Source: Halotalea alkalilenta (lineage in GTDB: Bacteria > Pseudomonadota > Gammaproteobacteria > Pseudomonadales > Halomonadaceae). Taken from it: a DNA stretch of 64,000 bases. A program made the position numbers and the translations under genes. Positions 41,657 to 53,231 of the stretch are shown here, one piece after another. The notes beneath the pieces were generated by a model. It was not told where the DNA came from and did not search any database. It was given only the letters and a program-made list of their open reading frames with translations. Each line of letters opens with the position of its first letter. Position 1 is the first letter of the stretch. The DNA is taken from NCBI RefSeq assembly GCF_001648175.1, contig NZ_CP015243.1:310001-374000 (forward strand). The letters are read 5' to 3'.

Positions 41657-41935
41657 ATGATCGTCAGCTTTCGCCACAAGGGGATGGCCCAGTTCTACAC
41701 CACCGGCTCGACCCGCGGTATCCGGGCGGACCAGGCAAGGCGCCTGGCGCGCATACTGGCGTTTCTCGACCGTGCCGCCACACCGAGCGATCTGGACCTG
41801 CCCGGCTGGCGATTGCATCCGCTCAAGGGCGAGCTGCAAGGCCACTGGTCGATCTCGGTGAACGGCCAATGGCGGGTGATCTTTCGCTTCGTCGACAATG
41901 ACGTGGAGCTGGTCGATCTACTCGATTACCACTGA
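41657..41935 (+). CDS. higB: HigB-type mRNA interferase toxin
   Basis: The 92-residue protein is of the RelE/HigB family (plasmid maintenance killer), with the motif WRLHPLKGELQGHWSISVNGQWRV split by the expected beta strands and a final RFVDNDVELVDLLDYH. The toxin-first order and the XRE gene 17 bases downstream match higBA. It cleaves mRNA on the ribosome by family knowledge. Ribosome site before the ATG is weak, as often in this family. Confidence 0.92.
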   Translation: MIVSFRHKGMAQFYTTGSTRGIRADQARRLARILAFLDRAATPSDLDLPGWRLHPLKGELQGHWSISVNGQWRVIFRFVDNDVELVDLLDYH

Positions 41936-42262: not shown

Positions 42263-43201
42263 TCACGGCGTCGGGCGCATCACCCCCTGGGCGTCGCGCT
42301 TGAGCGGGGCGGGCTGGACCGGCAGCGGTGCGCCGGGCACCTGCTCGACGCTTTCGCCTTCGGGCCAGTCGGGCGGGGCGATGGCGACGTAGCGCGCGAA
42401 GCCGCCGGTGCCGCCGAGCGGCTTGGCGAAGCCGATCGAGATCAGCGCACCGGCCTCGGGCACCTTGTCGAGGTTGGCGACCCCCTCGGCCTGGGCGAAA
42501 TTGTTGTGCATCAGCCACTCCTCGCCCTCGAGCGTCGGAGTCGTGTCGGTATCCAGCGGCTCATGGCCGTGGAACAGGATATGGCGCTCGAGGTGGAGGA
42601 ACTTCAATGCCTCGAGACCGACACCGGGGAAGGGCTTTTGGTTGAAGCGCTCGCGCTCGTCCCAGCGCTTGTACCAGTCGGAGCGCACCATCACCACCGC
42701 GCCCTCGGGAATGCGCCCGTGGCGCGACTCCCACGCCTCGATGTCGGAAACCTGGAGGTGATAGCCGGGATCAGCGGCAACCTTCTGGCTCACGTCGATC
42801 ACGACCAGCGGTCGCAAGGCATAGGTCGCCGGCAGGTCGCTGATCGTCGCACCGAGGGGATTCCAGTGCGCGGGCGGGTCGAGCTGGGTGCCGTACTGGT
42901 CGGTCGGCAGCTGGTAAGCGCTGGCGACGACGCCGTGCTTCTCGTAGCTGTACTCCTCGCCCTTGGCGACGAAGCCCGGGATATCCGCGCTGGCCACGGC
43001 GGGCTTGAACACTGCGTTATCGAAGCCGGGCCAGACCGCCTGCTCGGGCTCGAAGGCGTGGGTCAGGTCGATGTACTTGGCACTTTTCAGCGAGCGTTCG
43101 TAGAGCGTCCACAGCGAAGTATCGTCGTCGGCCCAGCTCGGGACGCTCGATAGCGCGAACAGCGCCAACGCCCAGACTGACGTAGAGCATGCATTGCGCA
43201 C
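42263..43201 (-). CDS. Secreted cyclase-family metal hydrolase
   Basis: The 312-residue protein has a signal peptide (about 1-24, PSWA) and then a cyclase/kynurenine-formamidase-type domain: YIDLTHAFEP, the metal motif TQLDPPAHW (HxGTHxDxPxH variant) and FHGHEPLDTD. Members hydrolyse amides or act on isatin and similar compounds. Here the first motif His of HxGTHxDxPxH is changed (YGTQLDPPAH), so metal binding may differ. The GTG at 43201 has AAGGAG 7 bases upstream and gives a clean signal; the ATG at 43225 precedes the ribosome site. Confidence 0.83.
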   Translation of the reverse strand: MRNACSTSVWALALFALSSVPSWADDDTSLWTLYERSLKSAKYIDLTHAFEPEQAVWPGFDNAVFKPAVASADIPGFVAKGEEYSYEKHGVVASAYQLPTDQYGTQLDPPAHWNPLGATISDLPATYALRPLVVIDVSQKVAADPGYHLQVSDIEAWESRHGRIPEGAVVMVRSDWYKRWDERERFNQKPFPGVGLEALKFLHLERHILFHGHEPLDTDTTPTLEGEEWLMHNNFAQAEGVANLDKVPEAGALISIGFAKPLGGTGGFARYVAIAPPDWPEGESVEQVPGAPLPVQPAPLKRDAQGVMRPTP

Positions 43202-43323
43202 CGTTGTTCTCCTTGTCGATAGCATACCGCCCGACCCGCACCACAGCGTACGAGCCCCGGCAGAACCGGATCATAAGCCTATTCGCCATGACGATTGCTA
43301 CCGCGAACCACGCTCACCACGAG

Positions 43324-44934
43324 TCAGACCGGGTGGCGCGGCTCCGCCGCGAGCAAGGCGGCGGTGTAGGCGTGCTGCGGAGCATTCAACACACTCTCGG
43401 CGTCACCGCTCTCGACGATCCCGCCACCTTGCATCACCGCCACACGATCAGCGAAATGGCGAGCCAGGCCGAGATCATGGGTGATGAACAGCATGCTCAG
43501 GCCCAGCTGTTCGCTCAGCCGTGCAAGCAGGGTAACCACCTGGGCACGCACCGTTGCATCCAGCGCCGATACCGCTTCATCGGCGACCAACAGCTCAGGC
43601 TCCAGCGCCAGGGCTCGCGCGATCGCAAGCCGCTGGCGCTGCCCCCCGGAAAAAGCGTGGGGCCTGCGGCTAGCTGCCTGCACATCGAGGCCTACCAGTT
43701 CGAGCAGCTCTGCGACGCGATCGCGGGCTCGTGCCCCCCTGGCGATGCCGTGCACCAGCATCACCTCTTCGATGGCGTCACCCACCCGCATGCGCGGATT
43801 GAGACTGGCAAAAGGATCCTGGAACACCACCTGCATGCGTTGGCGCAACCACTGGCGCTGCACACCCCTGGCGTTGAGCACGTCGATGCCATCGAAGGTC
43901 ACGCTGCCACCGCTCGCGGGAGTGAGATTGAGCACGCAGCGCCCAAGCGTACTCTTGCCCGAGCCCGATTCGCCGACCAGCGCCAGCGTCTCGCCACGGT
44001 GGATATCCAGATCGACCGCGTGCAGCACCTGGAGCTCGTTGCTCGCCCCGAAGAAGCGGCGGCGGCTGGGGTAGCTCTTGCTCAAGCCCCGCACCCGCAA
44101 CAGTGGCTCGCCCAGCGCGCTGGTATCCATCCGCGCCCGGGTCGGGAAGGCGCTGCCGCCGGGAAGGGCGGCGATCAGGCCGCGGGTGTAGTCATGGGCG
44201 GGAGATGCGAGCACTGCCGAGACCTCGCCCGACTCCACGATCTCGCCCTTGCGCATCACCACCATCCGATCCGCGACCTCAGCCACCACGCCCAGGTCAT
44301 GGGTCACCATCAGCACCCCCATACCCTGGCTATCGCGCAGTTCACCGATCAGCTCGAGCAGTTGCCGCTGCAAGGTGACGTCCAGGGCGGTAGTGGGCTC
44401 GTCGGCGATCAGCAGCCGCGGTTCGCAAGCAATCGCGATCGCGATCATCACCCGCTGGCGCATGCCGCCGGACAGCTCATGGATGTACTGCCGCGCACGC
44501 CGCTCCGGCTGGTTGATACCGACACGCTCGAGCAGGCGTATCGCTTGGCGATGCGCCTGCCGCCACTGCTCGCCACAATGGCGTACGCGCACCTCGGCGA
44601 TCTGCTCGCCGATGCGCAGCACCGGATTGAGCGCGCTCATCGGCTCCTGGAAGACGAAACCGATGCGTGCTCCGCGCAGTTTGGCGAGGGTGGCCGGCTG
44701 GTCGAGCGCGTAGCTCTCGCCGTCGAAGGTCATTCGCCCCGCTCGAACCCTGACCGTACTCGGCAATAGCCCCACCAGCGACAAGGCCGAGAGCGTCTTG
44801 CCTGATCCCGACTCACCGACCAAGGCCAGCGTACGCCCTGCCTCCACCTCAAAGTGGACGCCAGCGACCAACGCAGAATGCTCGCCATCGACGCCTATCT
44901 CCAGGCCTTCGACCCGCAGCAGCGATGTACTCAC
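43324..44934 (-). CDS. Peptide ABC transporter, fused double ATP-binding protein
   Basis: The 536-residue protein contains two complete ABC ATPase domains in tandem. Domain 1 has Walker A GESGSGKT, LSGGMRQR and LLIADEPTTALD. Domain 2 has GESGSGKST, FSGGQRQR and LLVADEAVSALD. The fusion is like GsiA and YejF. It uses a GTG start overlapping the rhodanese stop by 4 bases (GTGA). It is the last gene of the operon whose first genes encode the binding protein and permeases, an unusual separation of the transporter parts. Confidence 0.92.
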   Translation of the reverse strand: MSTSLLRVEGLEIGVDGEHSALVAGVHFEVEAGRTLALVGESGSGKTLSALSLVGLLPSTVRVRAGRMTFDGESYALDQPATLAKLRGARIGFVFQEPMSALNPVLRIGEQIAEVRVRHCGEQWRQAHRQAIRLLERVGINQPERRARQYIHELSGGMRQRVMIAIAIACEPRLLIADEPTTALDVTLQRQLLELIGELRDSQGMGVLMVTHDLGVVAEVADRMVVMRKGEIVESGEVSAVLASPAHDYTRGLIAALPGGSAFPTRARMDTSALGEPLLRVRGLSKSYPSRRRFFGASNELQVLHAVDLDIHRGETLALVGESGSGKSTLGRCVLNLTPASGGSVTFDGIDVLNARGVQRQWLRQRMQVVFQDPFASLNPRMRVGDAIEEVMLVHGIARGARARDRVAELLELVGLDVQAASRRPHAFSGGQRQRLAIARALALEPELLVADEAVSALDATVRAQVVTLLARLSEQLGLSMLFITHDLGLARHFADRVAVMQGGGIVESGDAESVLNAPQHAYTAALLAAEPRHPV

Positions 44935-45752
44935 CTGGGATCGACTCCAGACGCGCGCTCGGCCCACTCGTGCCACGAGCCGACGAACACCTTGAGCTTG
45001 GAAAAGCCCGCCATGCGCAGCGCGTAGAACACGGTGGCGGCACGCGCGCCACGGTGGCAATAGAGGATCAGCGTCTGCCTGGGGTCGAGCCCGGCCTCGG
45101 TGGCCCGGGCGAGAATCTCGCTCGGACTGCGGTAGCTGCCGCCTTGCAGTACGTCCTCCCAGAACAGGTGCACGCTGCCAGGAATCCGGCCACCGCGAGC
45201 GCAGCAAGGGTGCACGAACTCCCCCTGGTACTCGCTGAAACGCCGCACATCGACCACCACCGTCTCCACGCCATCGGCGGCGGTGACCTCGTCGTAGCTT
45301 GCGATCGACTCCGCCCTCCAGGCGGCAGGTGCCACGGCGCGCCGCTCGAGCGCAATCGTCGAGCTCGCGCCAGCTCCTGGGGCCAGCTCGCCTGCGATGG
45401 CATGCCAGGCATCGATGCCGCCATCGAGGATCCGCCCATTGGGTAGGCCAAGCAGCTCGTGGAACCACAGCGCCCTCGGCGACACCATCCCGGTCGCGGT
45501 TTCGAAATAGATGGTTTGCGTGGCGGAGAAAGCGCCGATCTCCGCCAGCGCCTGCGCTGCAGCGGCCACCAGGTGCTGGATTCCTTCGTCATCGCTGCGA
45601 TCGATGAATACGCTGTAGGCATCGAGATGCACCGCACCAGGCAGCGTCGAGGCCCGCCATGCATCGGCCGAGCGTACATCGACGAGCAGCGTGCCAGGGC
45701 GAGCCAGGCGGCTGGCAAGCTGGGCGGCATCGATGATAGAAGCGCTATTCAT
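44931..45752 (-). CDS. Two-domain rhodanese (thiosulfate/3-mercaptopyruvate sulfurtransferase)
   Basis: The 273-residue protein has two rhodanese domains (about 5-125 and 145-270). The active Cys232 lies in YCHRGARA at the second domain. It moves sulfur from thiosulfate or 3-mercaptopyruvate to cyanide or thiols. The loop CHRGAR differs from CGSGVT of SseA-type enzymes, leaving the donor uncertain. Being between an ornithine-cyclodeaminase relative and the ATPase in a tightly overlapped operon, next to a D-cysteine desulfhydrase-like gene, it points to sulfur from an imported substrate. Confidence 0.88.
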   Translation of the reverse strand: MNSASIIDAAQLASRLARPGTLLVDVRSADAWRASTLPGAVHLDAYSVFIDRSDDEGIQHLVAAAAQALAEIGAFSATQTIYFETATGMVSPRALWFHELLGLPNGRILDGGIDAWHAIAGELAPGAGASSTIALERRAVAPAAWRAESIASYDEVTAADGVETVVVDVRRFSEYQGEFVHPCCARGGRIPGSVHLFWEDVLQGGSYRSPSEILARATEAGLDPRQTLILYCHRGARAATVFYALRMAGFSKLKVFVGSWHEWAERASGVDPR

Positions 45753-46753
45753 GGCGATTCTCCAGGCAGGGTAAGAAGCGCTTGCCAGCTGCCCACCTCG
45801 AGGCGTTCCGCCGCCTCGAGCAGCCGGGCAGCCAGCGCGATATCGAACAGGTTGAGCCCAAAGCTCGAGAAATAGACCGAGCTTCCCGGCACGGGTCGCC
45901 AGCGCCCGGCGACCAGGTCCGCAAGCGTTGCGGCCAGGCGCGCTGGTTCGAAACGCCCTGCGCGGTGCATCTGGAACAGGCTCTTGGCGCTGGTGAGACG
46001 AAATTCGCCCCAAAGATCGACCAGCACGGCGTCGAAACGCTCGATTGCCGCGAAGCTGACCTCGTTGCGCCCGATCTGGAGCACCAGCCGGTCCGCCGCC
46101 ACCGCATCCTCGCCCACCAGGGGGCGTTCGGCGTTGGTGCAGCACAGCAGCGCATCCACACCCTTGCATGCCTCTTCCAAGCTAGCGGCGACCACCAGCT
46201 CGAATGGCCAGGCGCGCTGGGTGGCCCACGCCAGCGCTGACGGGGTGCGATTCCATATCGTCACCCGTTCGATGCCGGGAAAGCGCCCGGCAAGCATCGA
46301 CAGGTGGGTACGCGCCTGGAACCCTGCCCCCAGCACGGTCACCCGGGTGAGCGGGCCGGGCGCTGCGTACTCGAGCGCGAGCGCGCTGACCGCCGCAGTG
46401 CGAACCGCCGTCAGCAGGCCGCTCTCGACCAGCCCACGCGGCCTTCCATCGAGATGGTTGACCAAGGTGGTCGAGTAGGACGAGGGCTGGCCCACACCCT
46501 GGGGCGGAAGATGCAGGCTCCACTTGAGCCCGACGGCATCGAACCTTCCGCCCACCCAGGCCGGTAGGCCATAGGCATAGCCGGGCCTGTCGTCGGTCGC
46601 CAGGGGGAGCACGCACTCAGGCGACATGCGAGCCTGGCCGGCCTCGAAAAGCGCCAGAACGTCGACGATATCCGCCATCGCGGCGTCGAAATCCCCTCCG
46701 CCAAGGGAGGTGACCTGGGCACGGTCAAGACAGCGCACGCCCAGTGTGGTCAT
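45749..46753 (-). CDS. Ornithine cyclodeaminase / mu-crystallin family protein
   Basis: The 334-residue protein has the Rossmann motif VLGAGFQARTHLSML (about 147-161) and the family layout of a substrate-binding N-terminal half and an NAD(P)-binding C-terminal half. Family members are ornithine cyclodeaminase, alanine dehydrogenase and ketimine reductases, some of which act on sulfur-containing cyclic ketimines. The conserved ornithine-binding residues cannot be confirmed, so cyclodeaminase activity is not claimed. Both ends overlap neighbours by 4 bases. Confidence 0.87.
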   Translation of the reverse strand: MTTLGVRCLDRAQVTSLGGGDFDAAMADIVDVLALFEAGQARMSPECVLPLATDDRPGYAYGLPAWVGGRFDAVGLKWSLHLPPQGVGQPSSYSTTLVNHLDGRPRGLVESGLLTAVRTAAVSALALEYAAPGPLTRVTVLGAGFQARTHLSMLAGRFPGIERVTIWNRTPSALAWATQRAWPFELVVAASLEEACKGVDALLCCTNAERPLVGEDAVAADRLVLQIGRNEVSFAAIERFDAVLVDLWGEFRLTSAKSLFQMHRAGRFEPARLAATLADLVAGRWRPVPGSSVYFSSFGLNLFDIALAARLLEAAERLEVGSWQALLTLPGESP

Positions 46754-47760
46754 TGCCGCCGGCCTTCCAGCAACCGCTCCGAGAAGGGGTAGAGCGCGGG
46801 GCTGCCACCGCAGTGGACGAACAGCACTTGCTGCCCTTGGGCGATGCGCCCCTTGGCGCACAGGTCGATCAGCGCGCTCATCGCCTTGCCGGTATAGACC
46901 GGATCGAGCAGTATCCCCTCGTCCTTGGCCAGCCGATGTATCGCCTCGACCCCGTCGTCGCTGGGCAGACCGTAACCGGGGCCGACATAGCCGTCCTCGA
47001 CCTGGATTTCTTCAGCGGCGAAGCGCAGGGGCTGCTCGAGCAGTTCGGCGCAGTCGCTCGCCATCGCAGCGATCCGGCTCTGGAACCAAGCGGCATCGCG
47101 GCTCACGCTGACCCCGATCACCTTGGTCTGCGGCCAGTAGAGCCGGGCACCGACGATCAGTCCGGCGAGCGTCCCGCCGGAGCCAGCCGGCGCGAGCACG
47201 ATGTCGGGCGGCGACCACTGCATCCGGGCGTACTGCTCGGCGAGTTCGGCCACCGCACGCACGTAGCCCAGCGCACCGAGCGGCGTGGCGCCACCCAGCG
47301 GGATGATGAACGGTACCTTTCCTTGCTCCCTCGCCCGCTCCGCGTGGGCTTGCATGCACGGCTCGACCTGCTCGAAGTAGGCCTGGGGATCGAGGTACTC
47401 GATCGTGGCACCGAACAGCTCGTCGAGCAGCAGGTTGCCCTCGCGCTGCTGCGGTGCGTTGCCGCGCAGCACCAGTACCGCCTCGAGGCCGAAGCGCCGC
47501 GCCGCTGCGGCGACCATCCTGGCGTGGTTGGACTGGTGCCCACCGGTGGTGATCAATACCTCGGCGCCGGCCGCGCGCGCCTCTGCCAGCAGGTACTCGA
47601 GCTTGCGCACCTTGTTGCCGCCGCCGCCAAAACCGGTGTAGTCGTCGCGCTTCATGCGCACATCGACGCCGAGCGCAGCGGAGAGACGCGGCAGCTCATC
47701 GATCGGGGTGGGTAGGAAGCCCAGCTCGACGCGGGCGAAGTCTTCGTGGCTGAGTGCCAT
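46750..47760 (-). CDS. PLP enzyme, D-cysteine desulfhydrase / ACC deaminase family
   Basis: The 336-residue protein has the PLP lysine K50 in GGGGNKVRKLEY, the phosphate and substrate loop GGHQSNHAR (73-81, Ser77) and a C-terminal DPVYTGKAM and HCGGSPALYPF. This group contains D-cysteine desulfhydrase, ACC deaminase and L-cysteate sulfo-lyase (CuyA). The motif LDPVYTGKAM favours the desulfhydrase side, giving pyruvate, ammonia and sulfide (or sulfite if cysteate). AAGGAGG precedes the ATG. It is 24 bases after the M20 gene. Confidence 0.88.
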   Translation of the reverse strand: MALSHEDFARVELGFLPTPIDELPRLSAALGVDVRMKRDDYTGFGGGGNKVRKLEYLLAEARAAGAEVLITTGGHQSNHARMVAAAARRFGLEAVLVLRGNAPQQREGNLLLDELFGATIEYLDPQAYFEQVEPCMQAHAERAREQGKVPFIIPLGGATPLGALGYVRAVAELAEQYARMQWSPPDIVLAPAGSGGTLAGLIVGARLYWPQTKVIGVSVSRDAAWFQSRIAAMASDCAELLEQPLRFAAEEIQVEDGYVGPGYGLPSDDGVEAIHRLAKDEGILLDPVYTGKAMSALIDLCAKGRIAQGQQVLFVHCGGSPALYPFSERLLEGRRQ

Positions 47761-47784
47761 GGCGTAACCCCTCCTTGGGGTGTA

Positions 47785-49125
47785 TCAGGACTGGCGATGC
47801 GATGGGAAAGAGCTAGGGAAGCGCGCCAGCCAATCGGTCAACGAAGCGACCAGCCGATCGATTCCATCGAGCTCGATGTATTCGTCGATGCCATGTGCGT
47901 TGCCCCCGCGGCCCAGCCCTCCGATCACGAAGGCGTGGCTCACTCCGGCGAAGGCATGGGCTGGGGCGGCACCCGGCGACCACGGCCAGCACAGTGGCTC
48001 GACCCCCGCTGCACGGTAGCTGGCGATGAGCTCCAGGAACCCCGGGGCATCGGGGCTGAACGCGATACCGGGGAAGCATTCATCGACCTGGATGGCTGCA
48101 GCCGGGCGGGCCCGAATCACAGCGGCGACCCGATCGAGGAGCTGCGAAATCTCAGCACCCGGAGCGACCCGCAGGTCGAAGCGCGCCTCGGCCACCGCGG
48201 GGATGGTCGCCTTGCCGGGGAGCGGATGGCTGGTGAGCTCGCTGAGATTGAGCTGGTGGGCGCACAGCAGGCGGTGCAGCAAGGCCGCGCGATCGCCCGG
48301 CAGGGAGAAACGCTCGGTATGGCGGAATTCGAGTTCACGCTCGGGCTCGAAGCTCGCTGCTAGCTGATCGAACACCGGCACCAGCGACGCGGGCAGCGCT
48401 ACTTCACCGAGTGCCCCATCGCGCAGCGGCGCCAGCGCCTCGATCAGCTCCCAGCATGGATTGCCGATCCACGGTGAATTGCTCGAGTGAATCGCCTGGC
48501 GCGGACCGCCCCAGGCGCCGCCTTCCACCCGGACCCGCCCATGTACTATCCCCTTGAAGCCGTAATAGACCCGCGGCGGTCCGCCCGCGTATTCGCATAG
48601 CGATGGGAAGAGCGTGGCCTCGGCCGAGCGCACCGGCGTGTCGCCGCGGAGGTAGTCACGCAGGTTGCGGCTCCCGCTCTCCTCCTCGCCCTCGATGAGC
48701 AGCTCGAGATTGACGCCAAGCCCACCCTGCTCGAGCAGATGGCGCACCGCGACCAGCATCGCCGCCAATGGCCCCTTGTTGTTCTCCGCCCCCCGGCCGA
48801 TGTAGCGCGGACGCGGGGCATCGAGGTCCAGGCCACCGCGAAACGGCGGTAGCAGCCATCCCGACTCATCCGCCGGCATCACGTCGTACATGTTGTAGAG
48901 CTGCAGGGTGACCGGTGCGCCGAGATCGATACGCGCATGCACCACCGGCGGAAACGCATGGCGCCCTTCATCCACGATGGTGGCGCCCAGGACGGTGGAG
49001 AGATGCTCCTCCAGGCAGCGCGCCATGCGGGTCAACCCCTCCCGGTCACCCGCCACCGAGTGGATCGGCGTCCATTCATCGAGCAGCTCGAGCACCTGCG
49101 CCCTCAGCCGTGCCGCCGTGTTCAA
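47785..49125 (-). CDS. M20-family metallopeptidase relative with altered metal motif
   Basis: The 446-residue protein has the M20 fold: the YNMYDVMP segment (77-84), RGAENNKG (111-118), EGEEESGS (145-152, with the catalytic Glu) and a late NAHGIDEY. In typical M20 dipeptidases the first is GHYDVxP and the second GRGAxDDKG. Here the His ligand is Met79 and the bridging Asp is Asn115, so one or both zinc sites should be changed. A coherent subfamily with this pattern may exist. It starts with TTG, overlapping the permease stop (TTGA), with GAGG 8 bases upstream. It may deacylate or cleave an imported peptide. Confidence 0.82.
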   Translation of the reverse strand: MNTAARLRAQVLELLDEWTPIHSVAGDREGLTRMARCLEEHLSTVLGATIVDEGRHAFPPVVHARIDLGAPVTLQLYNMYDVMPADESGWLLPPFRGGLDLDAPRPRYIGRGAENNKGPLAAMLVAVRHLLEQGGLGVNLELLIEGEEESGSRNLRDYLRGDTPVRSAEATLFPSLCEYAGGPPRVYYGFKGIVHGRVRVEGGAWGGPRQAIHSSNSPWIGNPCWELIEALAPLRDGALGEVALPASLVPVFDQLAASFEPERELEFRHTERFSLPGDRAALLHRLLCAHQLNLSELTSHPLPGKATIPAVAEARFDLRVAPGAEISQLLDRVAAVIRARPAAAIQVDECFPGIAFSPDAPGFLELIASYRAAGVEPLCWPWSPGAAPAHAFAGVSHAFVIGGLGRGGNAHGIDEYIELDGIDRLVASLTDWLARFPSSFPSHRQS

Positions 49126-50039
49126 AGGCGTATCCTCGGATTGAGCAGCGCATAGAGCAGATCGACCAACAGGTTGACCAGCACGAAGATCGCCGCGGCG
49201 AACAGCACGATCACCTGCACCAGCGGCAGATCCCGATTCTGTATGGCCTGCACCGCCAGGCGGCCGATCCCAGGCCAGGAGAAGATCACCTCGGTGACCA
49301 GGGCGCCGCCCAGCAGCGCCGCGAACTCCATCGCTTGGACCGTGATCACGGGAATCAACGCGTTACGCAGGGCATGGCGGCGTATCACTCGCCATTCGGA
49401 CAACCCCTTCGCCCGAGCGGTGCGCACATAGTCCTGCCCCAGCGCGTCGATCAGGCTGTCGCGCACCAGCCGAGTCACCGCGCTCATGTAGTAGGCACCC
49501 AACGCCACGGCGGGCAGGATCAAATGCCGGAGTTCGCCATATCCGCCGGTGGGCAGCAGACGCCAGTGCAACGAGAAGAGCAGAATCAGCAAAAGGCCAA
49601 GCCAGAACACCGGCAGTGCCTGCCCCATCAGCGCAATGCAGCGGGCGAAGAAGTCGATCGCGCTACCAGGGCGCAGCGCCGCGACGACGCCGAGAAAGAA
49701 ACCCAGCAGCGTACTCCAGCTCAGTGCCGCCAACGCCAGCAGCAAGGTGGCGGGAAGGCGCTCGACGATCAGCTCCAGCACCGGGCGTTGGAAGCGTAGC
49801 GAGACACCGAAATCGCCTTGCAGTAGTCGCGACAGGTAATCGATGTACTGCACCCACAGCGGGCGGTCGAAGCCCATCGCTTGGCGAAAGGCTGCGATCT
49901 CCTCGAAGCTCGCCTCTGGAGGCAGCATCAATGCAGCCGGATCACCACCGAGGTGCAGCGCATAGAACACCACCACCGTGACGCCCAGCATCACGAGCAG
50001 CGACTGCAGCAACCGATGAACTACGTAGCGCGCGTTCAA
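49122..50039 (-). CDS. Peptide ABC transporter permease (DppB type)
   Basis: The 305-residue membrane protein has six helices, an N-terminal RRLLQSLLVMLGVTVVVF-type segment, and the EAA loop with DYVRTARAKGLSEWRVIRRHALRNALIPV. The start is TTG at 50039, the only in-frame codon with a ribosome site (GAGGTGAT, 7 bases); it lies 4 bases after the stop of the second permease gene. Upstream ATG codons in frame run into that gene. Confidence 0.9.
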   Translation of the reverse strand: MNARYVVHRLLQSLLVMLGVTVVVFYALHLGGDPAALMLPPEASFEEIAAFRQAMGFDRPLWVQYIDYLSRLLQGDFGVSLRFQRPVLELIVERLPATLLLALAALSWSTLLGFFLGVVAALRPGSAIDFFARCIALMGQALPVFWLGLLLILLFSLHWRLLPTGGYGELRHLILPAVALGAYYMSAVTRLVRDSLIDALGQDYVRTARAKGLSEWRVIRRHALRNALIPVITVQAMEFAALLGGALVTEVIFSWPGIGRLAVQAIQNRDLPLVQVIVLFAAAIFVLVNLLVDLLYALLNPRIRL

Positions 50040-50043
50040 GTCA

Positions 50044-50892
50044 TCACCTCGGTTTGATCCGATAGCGACGCGCCAAGGCATCACCGAAGAAATTGCATCC
50101 AACCACGAGCGCTGCGATCAGCACGCCCGGCCAGATCACCAGCCAATCGGCGACCAGCAGGTAGGAACGTCCTTCGCCGATCAGGTTGCCCAGGGTCGGC
50201 GCCGGCGGCTGGATACCCATGCCGAGAAAACCCACCGACGCCTCGAGCACCACCAGGCGCGGCAGATCGAGGGTGAACAGCACGAGCTGGGCGCCGAACA
50301 GGTTGGGCAGCAGGTGTCGCAACAGCGTCCGGTAGAGCGGCAGGCCCAGCGCCTTGGTCGCCTCCATGTACTCGAGCTCACGCAGTTCGAGGGTGCGCGC
50401 CCGCGCGACCCGCGCATAGATCGCCCAACCGGTGAGCCCAAGCACCGCGACCAGATTGCCAATGCCCGGCCCGATCACCGACACCAGCAGCAGGATGAGA
50501 AGAATGAAAGGAATCGCCAGCTGGATGTCGACCAGACGCATGATCAGCGCATCGACCCAGCCACCGAAGTACCCGGCAAGCATGCCCACCGTCGTACCTA
50601 TCAGTAGCGAAATCATTCCAGCGCAGAGGACGATCGCCACCGACAACCGGCCACCCTCGAGCAGACGGGCGAGTAGATCGCGCCCGAGCTGGTCGGTGCC
50701 GAGTGGATGCCATACATCGCCACTCGACGAAAGCGGGGGCGAGAAGCTCGAGAGCAGATCCGCCTCCAGCGGATCCAGCGGCCAGAGCCACGGGCCGACC
50801 AGCGTGACCAGCGCGATCAACCCCAGCAAGCCGCCGCTCAGCCATAGATCCATCTCCCGCCGGCCCAGCATGAGCGTCAACGCCCCCCTCAT
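50044..50892 (-). CDS. Peptide ABC transporter permease (DppC type)
   Basis: The 282-residue membrane protein has the DppC layout: a first helix, a periplasmic stretch with HPLGTDQLGRDLLARLLEGGRLS, and the EAA loop REYMEATKALG-like region. It overlaps the binding-protein stop by 4 bases (ATGA). It forms the channel with the DppB-type partner. Confidence 0.92.
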   Translation of the reverse strand: MRGALTLMLGRREMDLWLSGGLLGLIALVTLVGPWLWPLDPLEADLLSSFSPPLSSSGDVWHPLGTDQLGRDLLARLLEGGRLSVAIVLCAGMISLLIGTTVGMLAGYFGGWVDALIMRLVDIQLAIPFILLILLLVSVIGPGIGNLVAVLGLTGWAIYARVARARTLELRELEYMEATKALGLPLYRTLLRHLLPNLFGAQLVLFTLDLPRLVVLEASVGFLGMGIQPPAPTLGNLIGEGRSYLLVADWLVIWPGVLIAALVVGCNFFGDALARRYRIKPR

Positions 50893-52397
50893 GGGTTGAA
50901 GCCCAAGTCGAACAGCGGGATGCGCGCATCGGCCCGGCCTTCGAAGCGCACGCCATTGGCGACGCCGTAGAGGCTGTCTTCCTGGTAGAGGGTGAGCAGC
51001 AGGCGCTGGTCGACCACTCGCTGCTGCACCGCCGCGAGTAGCTCGATGCGCTCCTGCTCATCGAGCATCTGGCGACTGCGATCGAGCAGTTGGTCGAGCT
51101 CGGCGTCGCGCACGGTCGAGTAAGGCTCGCCGGAGCGCAGGATGGGATAGAGCGCCGCGTCGGCATCCAGTGTCTGGGTGGATCCCCAGCCCAACATGTA
51201 GATCGGTGCCTGGCTTCCCGATGGCACCTGCTGGGTATAGACCGACCACTCAGGGATCTCGAGGGAGACCTTCACACCGATCTGGCCAAAAGCCTGCGCC
51301 AGGTACTGCCCTACGTCAGCGCTCGCGTTGTAGCGGCGTGGCGCTTGCATACGAATCTCGAAGCCATCGCCATAGCCCGCCTCCGCCAGCAATTGCCGAG
51401 CGCGCTCAGGGTCGTAGTCCGGAGCCGGAAGCTCTAGATAGCCATGATCGAGCGGGCTGGCCTGGCTGCCATGCACGGTGGCGAACCCTCGCAGCAGGCG
51501 GCTGACCACCGCTTGTCGATCGATCGCAAGCGACAGCGCCTCCCTGACCCGCGGATCGTCGAGCGGGGGTTCGTCGCTCTTGAGTCCAAGATAGAGGGTG
51601 AGCCCACCATTCTCGACCCGATCCAAGCGCAGCTCAGGATTCGACTCGATCACCTGGGCCAGGTCCGCCGGGATGCTTTCAGCGAGCTGGACCTCTCCCG
51701 AGAGCAAAGCGGCTACCCGGGCGGTGGCTTCCGGAATCGGCCTCCAGATCACGCGCTCAAGCTCTGGGGCGCCCCGCCAGTAATCGGGGTTGGCGACCAT
51801 GGTCAGATGGTCGTCACGCACGAACTCAGCCACCCGGTAGGGACCCGTACCCACCGGCGCGGAGGCGAATTTCTGCTCGCCGGCCTCTCGCAAGTAGCCC
51901 GGCGGGACGATGTAGGCCGGATAGCGGCTGAGCCTCGACGGCAGCAGCGGATCGGGCCCGGTGGTATGGAAGCGAACGGTATCGGCGTCGACGATCTCGA
52001 CCTCGGAGATGGTGCGTACATAGCTGATCGTCGGCGCATTGGCGGCGGGGTCGAGGATCCGGTCGAAGGTGAACTTGACCGCTTCGGCATCGAATGGCTC
52101 GCCGTTGTGGAATTTCACCCCGGGACGCAGCTCGAACTCCCACGTCTGGTCGTCTATCACCCGCCACTCGGTGGCCAGGCCTGGTGCCAAACGCATCTGG
52201 TCATCGCGCATCACCAAGGTGTCGAACACGTTGTCGACCAGCGTCGCCGCTTCACGCAGGAAACCTGGGTCGAGCGCCGCCGGTGCGGTGGCCTGGGCGA
52301 TGGTCAGCTCACTGGCCCGAGCATGGTCCGGCACCGACACCAGCGCGATCGGCAAGCAAAACGCCAACAACCTGGTCCATCCAAAGGGGGAATGCAT
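50889..52397 (-). CDS. Peptide ABC transporter substrate-binding protein (SBP_bac_5)
   Basis: The 502-residue protein has a signal peptide (about 1-28, HARA) and the SBP family 5 fold, with the early motif LVDNVFDTLVMRDDQM and the region GTGPYRV. It is the first gene of the minus-strand operon that runs to 43324. GGAGG stands about 10 bases before the ATG. Ligands of the family include di- and oligopeptides, glutathione, nickel and opines. With the desulfhydrase and rhodanese downstream a cysteine-containing compound is a fair guess. Confidence 0.9.
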   Translation of the reverse strand: MHSPFGWTRLLAFCLPIALVSVPDHARASELTIAQATAPAALDPGFLREAATLVDNVFDTLVMRDDQMRLAPGLATEWRVIDDQTWEFELRPGVKFHNGEPFDAEAVKFTFDRILDPAANAPTISYVRTISEVEIVDADTVRFHTTGPDPLLPSRLSRYPAYIVPPGYLREAGEQKFASAPVGTGPYRVAEFVRDDHLTMVANPDYWRGAPELERVIWRPIPEATARVAALLSGEVQLAESIPADLAQVIESNPELRLDRVENGGLTLYLGLKSDEPPLDDPRVREALSLAIDRQAVVSRLLRGFATVHGSQASPLDHGYLELPAPDYDPERARQLLAEAGYGDGFEIRMQAPRRYNASADVGQYLAQAFGQIGVKVSLEIPEWSVYTQQVPSGSQAPIYMLGWGSTQTLDADAALYPILRSGEPYSTVRDAELDQLLDRSRQMLDEQERIELLAAVQQRVVDQRLLLTLYQEDSLYGVANGVRFEGRADARIPLFDLGFNP

Positions 52398-52461: not shown

Positions 52462-52481
52462 ATATAGAATATATTCTGTAT
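52462..52481. promoter_or_regulatory. Near-perfect operator palindrome in gntR / peptide-operon promoter
   Basis: A perfect 12-bp palindrome AGAATATATTCT lies at 52466-52477, extended to 20 bp with one mismatched pair per arm. It sits between the divergent binding-protein gene (start 52397) and gntR (start 52557) and is the likely site for the GntR product. Confidence 0.75.
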
Positions 52482-52556
52482 TTCGATGCCATCACAAGTT
52501 ACTTTAGCGCCGGAAACCATCGATTCCGGCGGCAGCTGCTTTCAGCAAGGATCAAT

Positions 52557-53231
52557 ATGGAACGACCGAATACAGGCAGGTTCGCCCAGGCACCCAAAGG
52601 CGGCCTGAGCGGCTACGTCGAGCGCACGCTCAAGCAAGCGTTGATCGAAGGCAAACTGCTTCCTGGCGAGCGGCTGGTGGCCAAAGACCTTGCCGCCCAG
52701 TTGGATGTCAGCCCAACGCCGGTACGCGAAGCGCTGCTCAAGCTGGTCGCGTACGGCGCCCTGGAGATCAGCCCGGCCCAGTCATTCCAGGTGCCGGTGA
52801 TCACACGGGCACAGTACGCAGAGATCGCGCTGATACGCGAAGCGATCGAAAGCCTGGCGACTTCGCATGCCGCCAGGGTGATCGATACCCAACGCATCGA
52901 TCAGCTGGCGTCGCTGGATGAACGCTACAAGGCGGCGAGGCGGCGCGGTAAGAGCGCAGAGGCACTACAGCTCAATCGAGAATTTCGTTTCTGCCTCTAC
53001 GAGGCTGCACAAATGCCGATACTGATGGCGCAGATCGAGCAGCTATGGCTCAGGGTCGGGCCCTGTTTGCACCATATCTTCCCGATCGACGAAGACAATC
53101 CGTTCGAAGCCCACAACTACGACAAGCTGGTCTGTGCGCTGCGCGAGCACGACAGCGAGGCAGCGGCGACGCTGATCGCCAAGGCGGTGCGCGAGGGTAC
53201 CGAGATCATTCTGGAGCGACTCGGCCAATAA
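52557..53231 (+). CDS. GntR-family regulator, FCD subgroup
   Basis: The 224-residue protein has a winged HTH (about 15-80, KDLAAQLDVSPTPVREALLKL) and an FCD ligand domain (about 90-215). The start at 52557 follows AAGGA. It is divergent from the peptide/sulfur operon and likely represses it, releasing on binding a catabolic intermediate. The palindrome at 52462-52481 is the expected target. Confidence 0.92.
   Translation: MERPNTGRFAQAPKGGLSGYVERTLKQALIEGKLLPGERLVAKDLAAQLDVSPTPVREALLKLVAYGALEISPAQSFQVPVITRAQYAEIALIREAIESLATSHAARVIDTQRIDQLASLDERYKAARRRGKSAEALQLNREFRFCLYEAAQMPILMAQIEQLWLRVGPCLHHIFPIDEDNPFEAHNYDKLVCALREHDSEAAATLIAKAVREGTEIILERLGQ

Follow-up and report, generated by a model that had tools for sequence, protein, structure and literature searches.

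An operon of Halotalea alkalilenta with relatives across alpha- and gammaproteobacteria, a candidate system for import and desulfuration of a cysteine-derived conjugate

Gene content and organization of the operon

The window analyzed here is a stretch of 64,000 nucleotides, positions 310001-374000 of the 4.39-Mb genome of Halotalea alkalilenta. Its minus strand carries, at 43324-52397, a run of eight genes for a substrate-binding protein (SBP), two permeases (PermC and PermB), an M20-fold protein, a pyridoxal phosphate (PLP) enzyme, a dehydrogenase of the ornithine cyclodeaminase (OCD) family, a two-domain rhodanese and a fused double ATPase (Table 1). This operon had been delineated in an initial annotation from the letters alone, and the open reading frames and Pfam matches bear out its coordinates and family calls. 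Neighboring genes overlap by 4 bases at five of the seven junctions, as had been described for most of them, and the remaining two are gaps of 4 bases (PermC/PermB) and 24 bases (M20/PLP). The divergent GntR/FCD regulator gene and the operator-like palindrome in front of it are features absent from that annotation. We lean slightly towards reading these genes as one GntR-controlled regulon for the uptake and desulfuration of a small cysteine-derived conjugate.

Table 1. Features of the operon and its flanks, in positions of the window
Feature	Position	Strand	Evidence or remark
SBP_bac_5 substrate-binding protein (SBP)	50889..52397	-	Pfam SBP_bac_5, 319.6 bits
DppC-type permease (PermC)	50044..50892	-	Pfam BPD_transp_1; 4-base overlap with SBP
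DppB-type permease (PermB), assumed TTG start	49122..50039	-	Pfam BPD_transp_1 and BPD_transp_1_N
M20-fold protein; M79, N115 and P174 at three of five canonical metal-ligand places	47785..49125	-	Pfam Peptidase_M20
PLP enzyme, D-cysteine desulfhydrase family (beta-eliminating lyase family)	46750..47760	-	Pfam PALP; TIGR01275 305.8 bits, cut-off 289.4
OCD-family NAD(P) dehydrogenase, nearest SbnB	45749..46753	-	Pfam OCD_Mu_crystall
Two-domain rhodanese; active loop C232-HRGAR; extra H-x-C-C motif	44931..45752	-	Pfam Rhodanese, two stretches
Fused double ABC ATPase, assumed GTG start	43324..44934	-	Pfam ABC_tran, two stretches; GsiA model 515.9 bits, cut-off 1077
Divergent GntR/FCD regulator	52554..53231	+	Pfam GntR and FCD
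Operator-like palindrome ATAGAATATATTCTGT (+ strand letters)	52464..52479		17.9 bits, family matrix
Putative cyclase (PF04199), signal-peptide-like start	42263..43225	-	98 bases downstream of the ATPase gene

Conservation of the gene set

An alignment-based scan anchored on OCD, in a collection holding one genome per species, returned 71 loci with the gene set in varying completeness, spanning Enterobacterales, Rhizobiales, Rhodobacterales, Acetobacteraceae, Inquilinus, Bosea and others, some of them metagenome-assembled genomes (MAGs). The initial annotation had staked its reading on the genes being conserved together elsewhere, and in these loci they are. Genes were counted in the 60 loci whose flanks on either side of OCD exceed 6 kb (eleven shorter loci were excluded), using bit-score thresholds of our own choosing. 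These 60 loci contain SBP in 57, PermC in 57, PermB in 57, M20 in 60, ATPase in 55, GntR in 56, PLP in 52 and a rhodanese in 52, the last divided into 44 of the operon type and 8 of another type (here RHO2). At E <= 1e-20 the OCD protein was found in two of 58 relatives, its own genome and that of a genus mate, and at E <= 1e-30 in four of 398 genomes of the phylum, its own included. Because the M20 protein scores at least 367 bits in the same four genomes, with the next matches at 126 bits or less in seven further genomes, the grouping of these genes is more than chance. Halotalea alkalilenta DSM 17697 has the same region, with protein identities of 94-99%.

Three Acetobacter loci (L072, L075 and L076) had no ABC importer genes that could be seen, and L075 has a TonB-dependent receptor and an MFS transporter beside the genes; a metallophore or siderophore reading of that receptor found no further support. 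Plasmid pPAT9B02 of Pantoea sp. At-9b (L099), which is typed as conjugative, carries the whole gene set. Two annotated plasmid records describe the gene set only in generic terms. Loci L022 (titled Mycobacterium sp. KBS0706) and L050 (an Anaerolineae MAG) cluster with the Inquilinus copy and are probably mislabelled or misbinned.

The GntR regulator and its operator

Training on 59 spacers between GntR and SBP genes gave a palindromic operator, AnGATATATnATATATCnT. In 53 of these spacers, the best site scores above the 99th percentile of 1141 random windows. This test is partly circular, the matrix having been trained on those spacers; the random windows, for their part, contain some true second sites. 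The operator of the window is a weaker variant, with 17.9 bits against a median of 25.5 over the 59 spacers. Outside the spacers, where the test is independent, 41 sites of at least 18 bits were found in 1,172,603 bases from 58 loci, and all 41 lie at the start of an ATPase, PLP or RHO2 gene, counted as up to 200 bases upstream of the estimated start with 30 bases inside allowed; 40 belong to ATPase and/or PLP and one to RHO2. Ten column-shuffled matrices gave no site anywhere.

In whole genomes, the exact 15-base operator occurs 29 times in 14 of 22 genomes (which add up to about 120 Mb by their listed sizes), and its reversed control is absent from all 22. Among the eight genomes lacking the exact form are the five Enterobacterales tried, which have variant sites. 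By spacing, 24 of the 29 sites were placed as pairs of SBP/GntR and PLP/ATPase sites, and two single sites are presumed to be SBP/GntR. The operator also stands directly upstream of an RHO2-type gene in Aureimonas AU4 (its protein is 65% identical to that of L021), on a contig other than that of the operon, whose locus had no rhodanese that could be seen; it likewise precedes RHO2 in Chelatococcus and a run of Dpp-type transporter genes in Jiella mangrovi. In the Jiella loci that lack both PLP and rhodanese, the operators have been lost or have decayed: four of the five have no operator of at least 12 bits and the other (L019) has 12.2 bits. In the other pair without PLP, the operator is absent from L020 and kept in L027.

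Comparison of the loci shows, at the level of sequence, that the genes are co-inherited and share this operator-like site. The divergent GntR protein is predicted to bind the site and probably controls the operon.

The PLP enzyme and the sulfurtransferase

The PLP enzyme passes the subfamily cut-off of the D-cysteine desulfhydrase family (TIGR01275, 305.8 vs. 289.4 bits) and falls below all the equivalog or exception cut-offs listed, including those of three D-cysteine desulfhydrase equivalogs. Its two best models, CuyA and XcbE, are both among those not reached, with 328.3 bits against a cut-off of 450 for the CuyA (D-cysteate sulfo-lyase) equivalog, and the 1-aminocyclopropane-1-carboxylate (ACC) deaminase equivalog TIGR01274 gives 224.9 against 392. 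The protein resembles the D-cysteine desulfhydrase, CuyA and XcbE lyases in family; however, it differs from each in score. Twenty-five PLP enzymes from the operon loci share 56-67% identity with that of the window; other PLP relatives, in the 12 genomes checked, are 37-47% identical.

The PLP and rhodanese genes occur together in 51 of the 60 flanked loci and are both missing from seven, with one mixed locus each way; the rhodanese-only locus is L069, where a PLP gene sits just past the fetched stretch. The joint absences are five Jiella loci and one Cedecea/Buttiauxella pair. In Acetobacter L075, the PLP gene is followed directly by a sulfurtransferase gene on the same strand. The loop CHRGAR is present in 51 of 53 aligned rhodanese rows, that of the window included, and the other two (L014 and L016) have CGSGVT. 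RHO2, a distant relative, takes the place of the rhodanese in eight of the 71 loci, and the two types never occur together in a locus, with two changes on the tree. The RHO2 loop is CGSGVT in the seven proteins read (the eighth, from L023, is outside this count), a sequence that we take to be the signature of 3-mercaptopyruvate sulfurtransferases. Six scored RHO2 proteins reach 199-238 bits with the NCBI 3-mercaptopyruvate sulfurtransferase model, compared with 67-87 bits for four operon-type proteins. The operon rhodanese is related in this way to the SseA-type 3-mercaptopyruvate sulfurtransferases, a protein of that type replacing it in eight loci, and differs from them in its CHRGAR loop and H-x-C-C motif.

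Comparison therefore indicates that the operon rhodanese is replaceable by a 3-mercaptopyruvate sulfurtransferase type. Because of this exchange, and of the shared operator on the split-off genes, the PLP enzyme and the sulfurtransferase are assigned, from their sequences, to one sulfur-handling regulon. The initial annotation had called the desulfhydrase and the rhodanese sulfur enzymes, a view strengthened by their co-occurrence, the sulfurtransferase exchange and the common operator. The exchange also suggests 3-mercaptopyruvate as the sulfur carrier, and we put it forward as the intermediate handed over only tentatively, at less than even confidence.

The M20-fold protein, the OCD-family dehydrogenase and the transporter

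The M20-fold protein has the fold and matches the Pfam model, and it departs from the five-ligand site of M20 metallopeptidases, which we take from carboxypeptidase G2 to be His, a bridging Asp, Glu, Asp/Glu and His. The operon protein has M79, N115 and P174 in place of the His, Asp and Asp/Glu ligands and retains E149 and H411; the replacements are invariant in 31 of 31 aligned sequences. This sets it apart from enzymes such as Sso-CP2, carnosinase and DUG1. With three of five canonical metal ligands lost, ordinary peptidase action is doubtful, and the earlier suggestion of an M20 protein that cleaves or deacylates a peptide is not supported as far as it means an ordinary peptidase. The canonical metal-binding His and Asp are likewise missing from the next-nearest M20-fold proteins (L085-L091, from genomes of the phylum), which have MYDV and N-Q-K-G motifs; several have export-signal-like N-termini, and the other operon genes are not in their context, which gave no functional clue in open reading frame lists and comparison with the operon proteins. 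They may form a large branch of M20 proteins without metal.

The OCD protein is nearest SbnB by both sequence profile and fold, and reaches 125.5 bits with the SbnB equivalog TIGR03944, below its cut-off of 326.9. SbnB presumably catalyzes the NAD-dependent oxidation of an N-substituted glutamate. The role first proposed for the OCD protein, reduction of a cyclic ketimine, finds no support in this placement. As in the SbnA/SbnB synthesis of diaminopropionate, an OCD-family enzyme lies beside a PLP enzyme; however, the operon PLP enzyme belongs to the D-cysteine desulfhydrase family, with SbnA not among its listed models, the OCD protein is below the SbnB cut-off, and the operon adds importer and sulfurtransferase genes.

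The transporter had been likened to GsiA-type importers. It shares with the GsiABCD glutathione importer an SBP_bac_5 binder, two permeases and the fused double ATPase; however, all four subunits are far under the Gsi equivalog cut-offs (SBP 187 vs. 594 bits, PermB 279 vs. 463, PermC 172 vs. 484 and ATPase 516 vs. 1077), so the identity as a glutathione importer is rejected. The best PDB chains for SBP are, in order, 5u4o, YliB (GsiB, 1uqw), AgaA (6hlx), heme-binding protein A (3m8u) and AccA (8ch1).

Proposed pathway and alternatives

The import and desulfuration of a sulfur compound is on balance the probable function of the gene set. The import and breakdown of a cysteine-containing peptide or S-modified cysteine, as first read from the window, survives as one conserved system with sulfur chemistry; an ordinary peptidase and a ketimine reductase are not supported as parts of it. 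In the pathway proposed here, the SBP/permease/ATPase importer would bring in a cysteine-derived conjugate, and the M20-fold protein would bind or open it, probably by a route other than standard two-metal hydrolysis. The SbnB-like OCD enzyme would oxidize a C-N bond with NAD(P), opening the conjugate; the PLP enzyme would beta-eliminate the sulfur-bearing group, leaving pyruvate and ammonia; and the sulfurtransferase would accept the sulfur, most simply as 3-mercaptopyruvate. Candidate substrates are amino acids of the lanthionine or thiazolidine type, although a lanthionine type taken singly is rather improbable. In a concrete form, set out without the M20 protein, the OCD product would be a ketimine or keto acid such as S-(2-carboxy-2-oxoethyl)cysteine (open lanthionine ketimine), from which a beta-lyase would give 3-mercaptopyruvate, pyruvate and ammonia. 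On chemical grounds, a beta-lyase would deliver 3-mercaptopyruvate if the thioether partner had been oxidized beforehand, as in open lanthionine ketimine. The boldest version is a new organosulfur route, in which a thioether or cyclic amino acid derived from cysteine is imported and then opened by the dehydrogenase, the beta-lyase expels 3-mercaptopyruvate as the thiol, a sulfurtransferase with the new CHRGAR loop takes the sulfur, and the M20 partner, part of a wider M20 branch, works without the standard metal site; as a whole, this is a long shot.

Several observations weigh against this proposal. PLP is absent from eight of the 60 flanked loci (in L069 it lies just beyond the stretch), and no PLP relative at E <= 1e-40 was found in four of 12 genomes checked, so desulfuration is not a necessary companion of import, M20 and OCD. 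The joint absence of PLP and rhodanese represents few events, with two independent pairs on supported branches of the OCD and M20 tree (three on all branches), both agreeing, and a sign test p of 0.5. The RHO2 proteins stay below the 3-mercaptopyruvate sulfurtransferase cut-off of 250, and the rhodanese of the window has 85.2 bits against the PRK11493 cut-off of 250 and a different loop (CHRGAR, not CGSGVT). A looser operator pattern, run on seven genomes, also matched places unrelated to the gene set; its other matches in the Bosea and Inquilinus genomes are uninformative, and the reversed control there also gave 0-3 matches per strand. In the scanned loci, no operator of at least 12 bits was found at nearby cysteine-synthase-/cystathionine-lyase-like or luciferase-type monooxygenase genes, which, being without it, are not counted as parts. 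The HyuAB, BisC, FAD-oxidase and SDR neighbors described below are accessory and left unexplained by the lanthionine form, and the substrate, binding and activities are themselves predictions from comparison. The genome of the window has only one other canonical site, in front of a 5-oxoprolinase-type operon that has a GntR relative of its own close by.

That operon (L160, G000:C1:2143001-2162000) is of the PxpABC type and includes an APH-type kinase and a class-III aminotransferase. The site was rejected as proof of a 5-oxoproline step because the second-best GntR relative of the genome (35% identity), about 1 kb from the operon end, probably controls that operon.

The breakdown of D-cysteine or D-cysteine peptides would make the PLP enzyme a true D-cysteine desulfhydrase giving sulfide, which the rhodanese would detoxify, or let the rhodanese use 3-mercaptopyruvate from a side reaction (e.g., of an FAD oxidase). 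The subfamily assignment of the enzyme, the FAD D-amino/sarcosine-oxidase-type gene in 19 of the 71 loci and a second Dpp-type importer with the operator in one genome are in its favor; however, the enzyme is under all three D-cysteine desulfhydrase equivalog cut-offs, the M20 protein lacks the ordinary peptidase ligands and the SbnB-like OCD protein is given no role, making this explanation unlikely. More doubtful is the catabolism of an opine-type conjugate, in which a secondary-amine conjugate of a sulfur amino acid (an N-substituted glutamate or similar) would be split by the SbnB-like enzyme and HyuAB would open lactam forms. The nearness of OCD to SbnB agrees with it, as do AgaA and AccA, third and fifth among the PDB relatives of SBP and presumably binders of opines and of agrocinopine, respectively, and HyuA, found in 21 of the 71 loci with 10 changes on a 61-row tree and within the operon in L050. 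The OCD score far under the SbnB cut-off, the 50 of 71 loci where HyuA was not found and a sulfur-bearing half that it leaves unspecified argue against it.

The use of plant gamma-glutamyl compounds or S-alkylcysteine (sulfoxides) is highly improbable. Here a BisC-type reductase would strip the S-oxide, the PLP enzyme would cleave S-alkylcysteine and HyuAB would process 5-oxoproline, consistent with a BisC-family gene in 15 of the 71 loci, co-directional with GntR in Rhizobium, and with record titles from many genera that we take to be plant-associated. BisC is, however, confined to Rhizobiales and Acetobacteraceae loci, and neither OCD nor a 3-mercaptopyruvate-type sulfurtransferase has a role. 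That the PLP enzyme is an ACC deaminase or another sulfur-free deaminase beside an incidental rhodanese is extremely unlikely: it is of the same superfamily and scores 224.9 bits with the ACC deaminase model, but this is under the cut-off of 392, and the rhodanese co-occurs with PLP and is replaced by another sulfurtransferase in eight loci, the replacement being operator-bearing in two genomes. This reading was rejected on the model scores and the sulfurtransferase co-membership. A penicillin-type substrate was set aside, the literature search on it having given nothing useful.

Relation to described pathways

No published pathway with this gene set was found in the literature searched, in agreement with the initial annotation, which knew of no single described pathway holding all the parts. 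According to PMC4048297, some strains have M20 peptidase genes in the vicinity of acdS, and acdS has a LysR gene nearby in strains of which Pantoea sp. At-9b is one; this may concern related loci. In PMC11423573, isethionate is reported to induce ornithine cyclodeaminase and rhodanese genes, whose locus tags are far apart.

The operon represents an unnamed gene set common to alpha- and gammaproteobacteria and suggests a sulfur compound encountered frequently enough for bacteria to maintain a system dedicated to it, also on a plasmid typed as conjugative. Many of the host genera are, we assume, plant-associated. What the compound is can be tested directly by way of the binding protein and the effector of GntR, as can the role of an M20 fold without metal ligands, and the operator is a handle for finding further members.

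Accessory and flanking genes

Accessory families, assigned from one or two representatives each, were found in the 71 loci as follows: HyuA in 21, HyuB in 20, the FAD (flavin adenine dinucleotide) D-amino/sarcosine-type oxidase in 19, a short-chain dehydrogenase/reductase (SDR) in 21 and the BisC-type S/N-oxide reductase in 15. The fewest changes on the 61-row tree are 10 for HyuA, six for the FAD oxidase, five for SDR and three for BisC. In L050, the operon itself contains HyuAB. In Rhizobium sp. NFR07 (L043), HyuAB follow PLP, SDR and the FAD oxidase follow the ATPase and BisC follows GntR, in each case sharing the strand of a promoter that has an operator, an arrangement of co-direction only. 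The best operator site of HyuA itself is weak (12.7 bits, L053). From these genes, some of the substrates may contain a lactam, a secondary amine or an S-oxide. Four Enterobacterales loci (L032, L036, L030 and L025) have cystathionine-lyase-/cysteine-synthase-like, luciferase-type monooxygenase or DASS anion symporter genes near the operon, all of them lacking an operator of at least 12 bits.

In the window, the putative cyclase gene may be co-transcribed with the operon in Halotalea and is a candidate member; among the 71 loci, a relative was found only in Halotalea L010. Further along, a HigB-like toxin domain (PF05015, 80.3 bits) at 41666-41935 on the plus strand adjoins a peptide deformylase gene.

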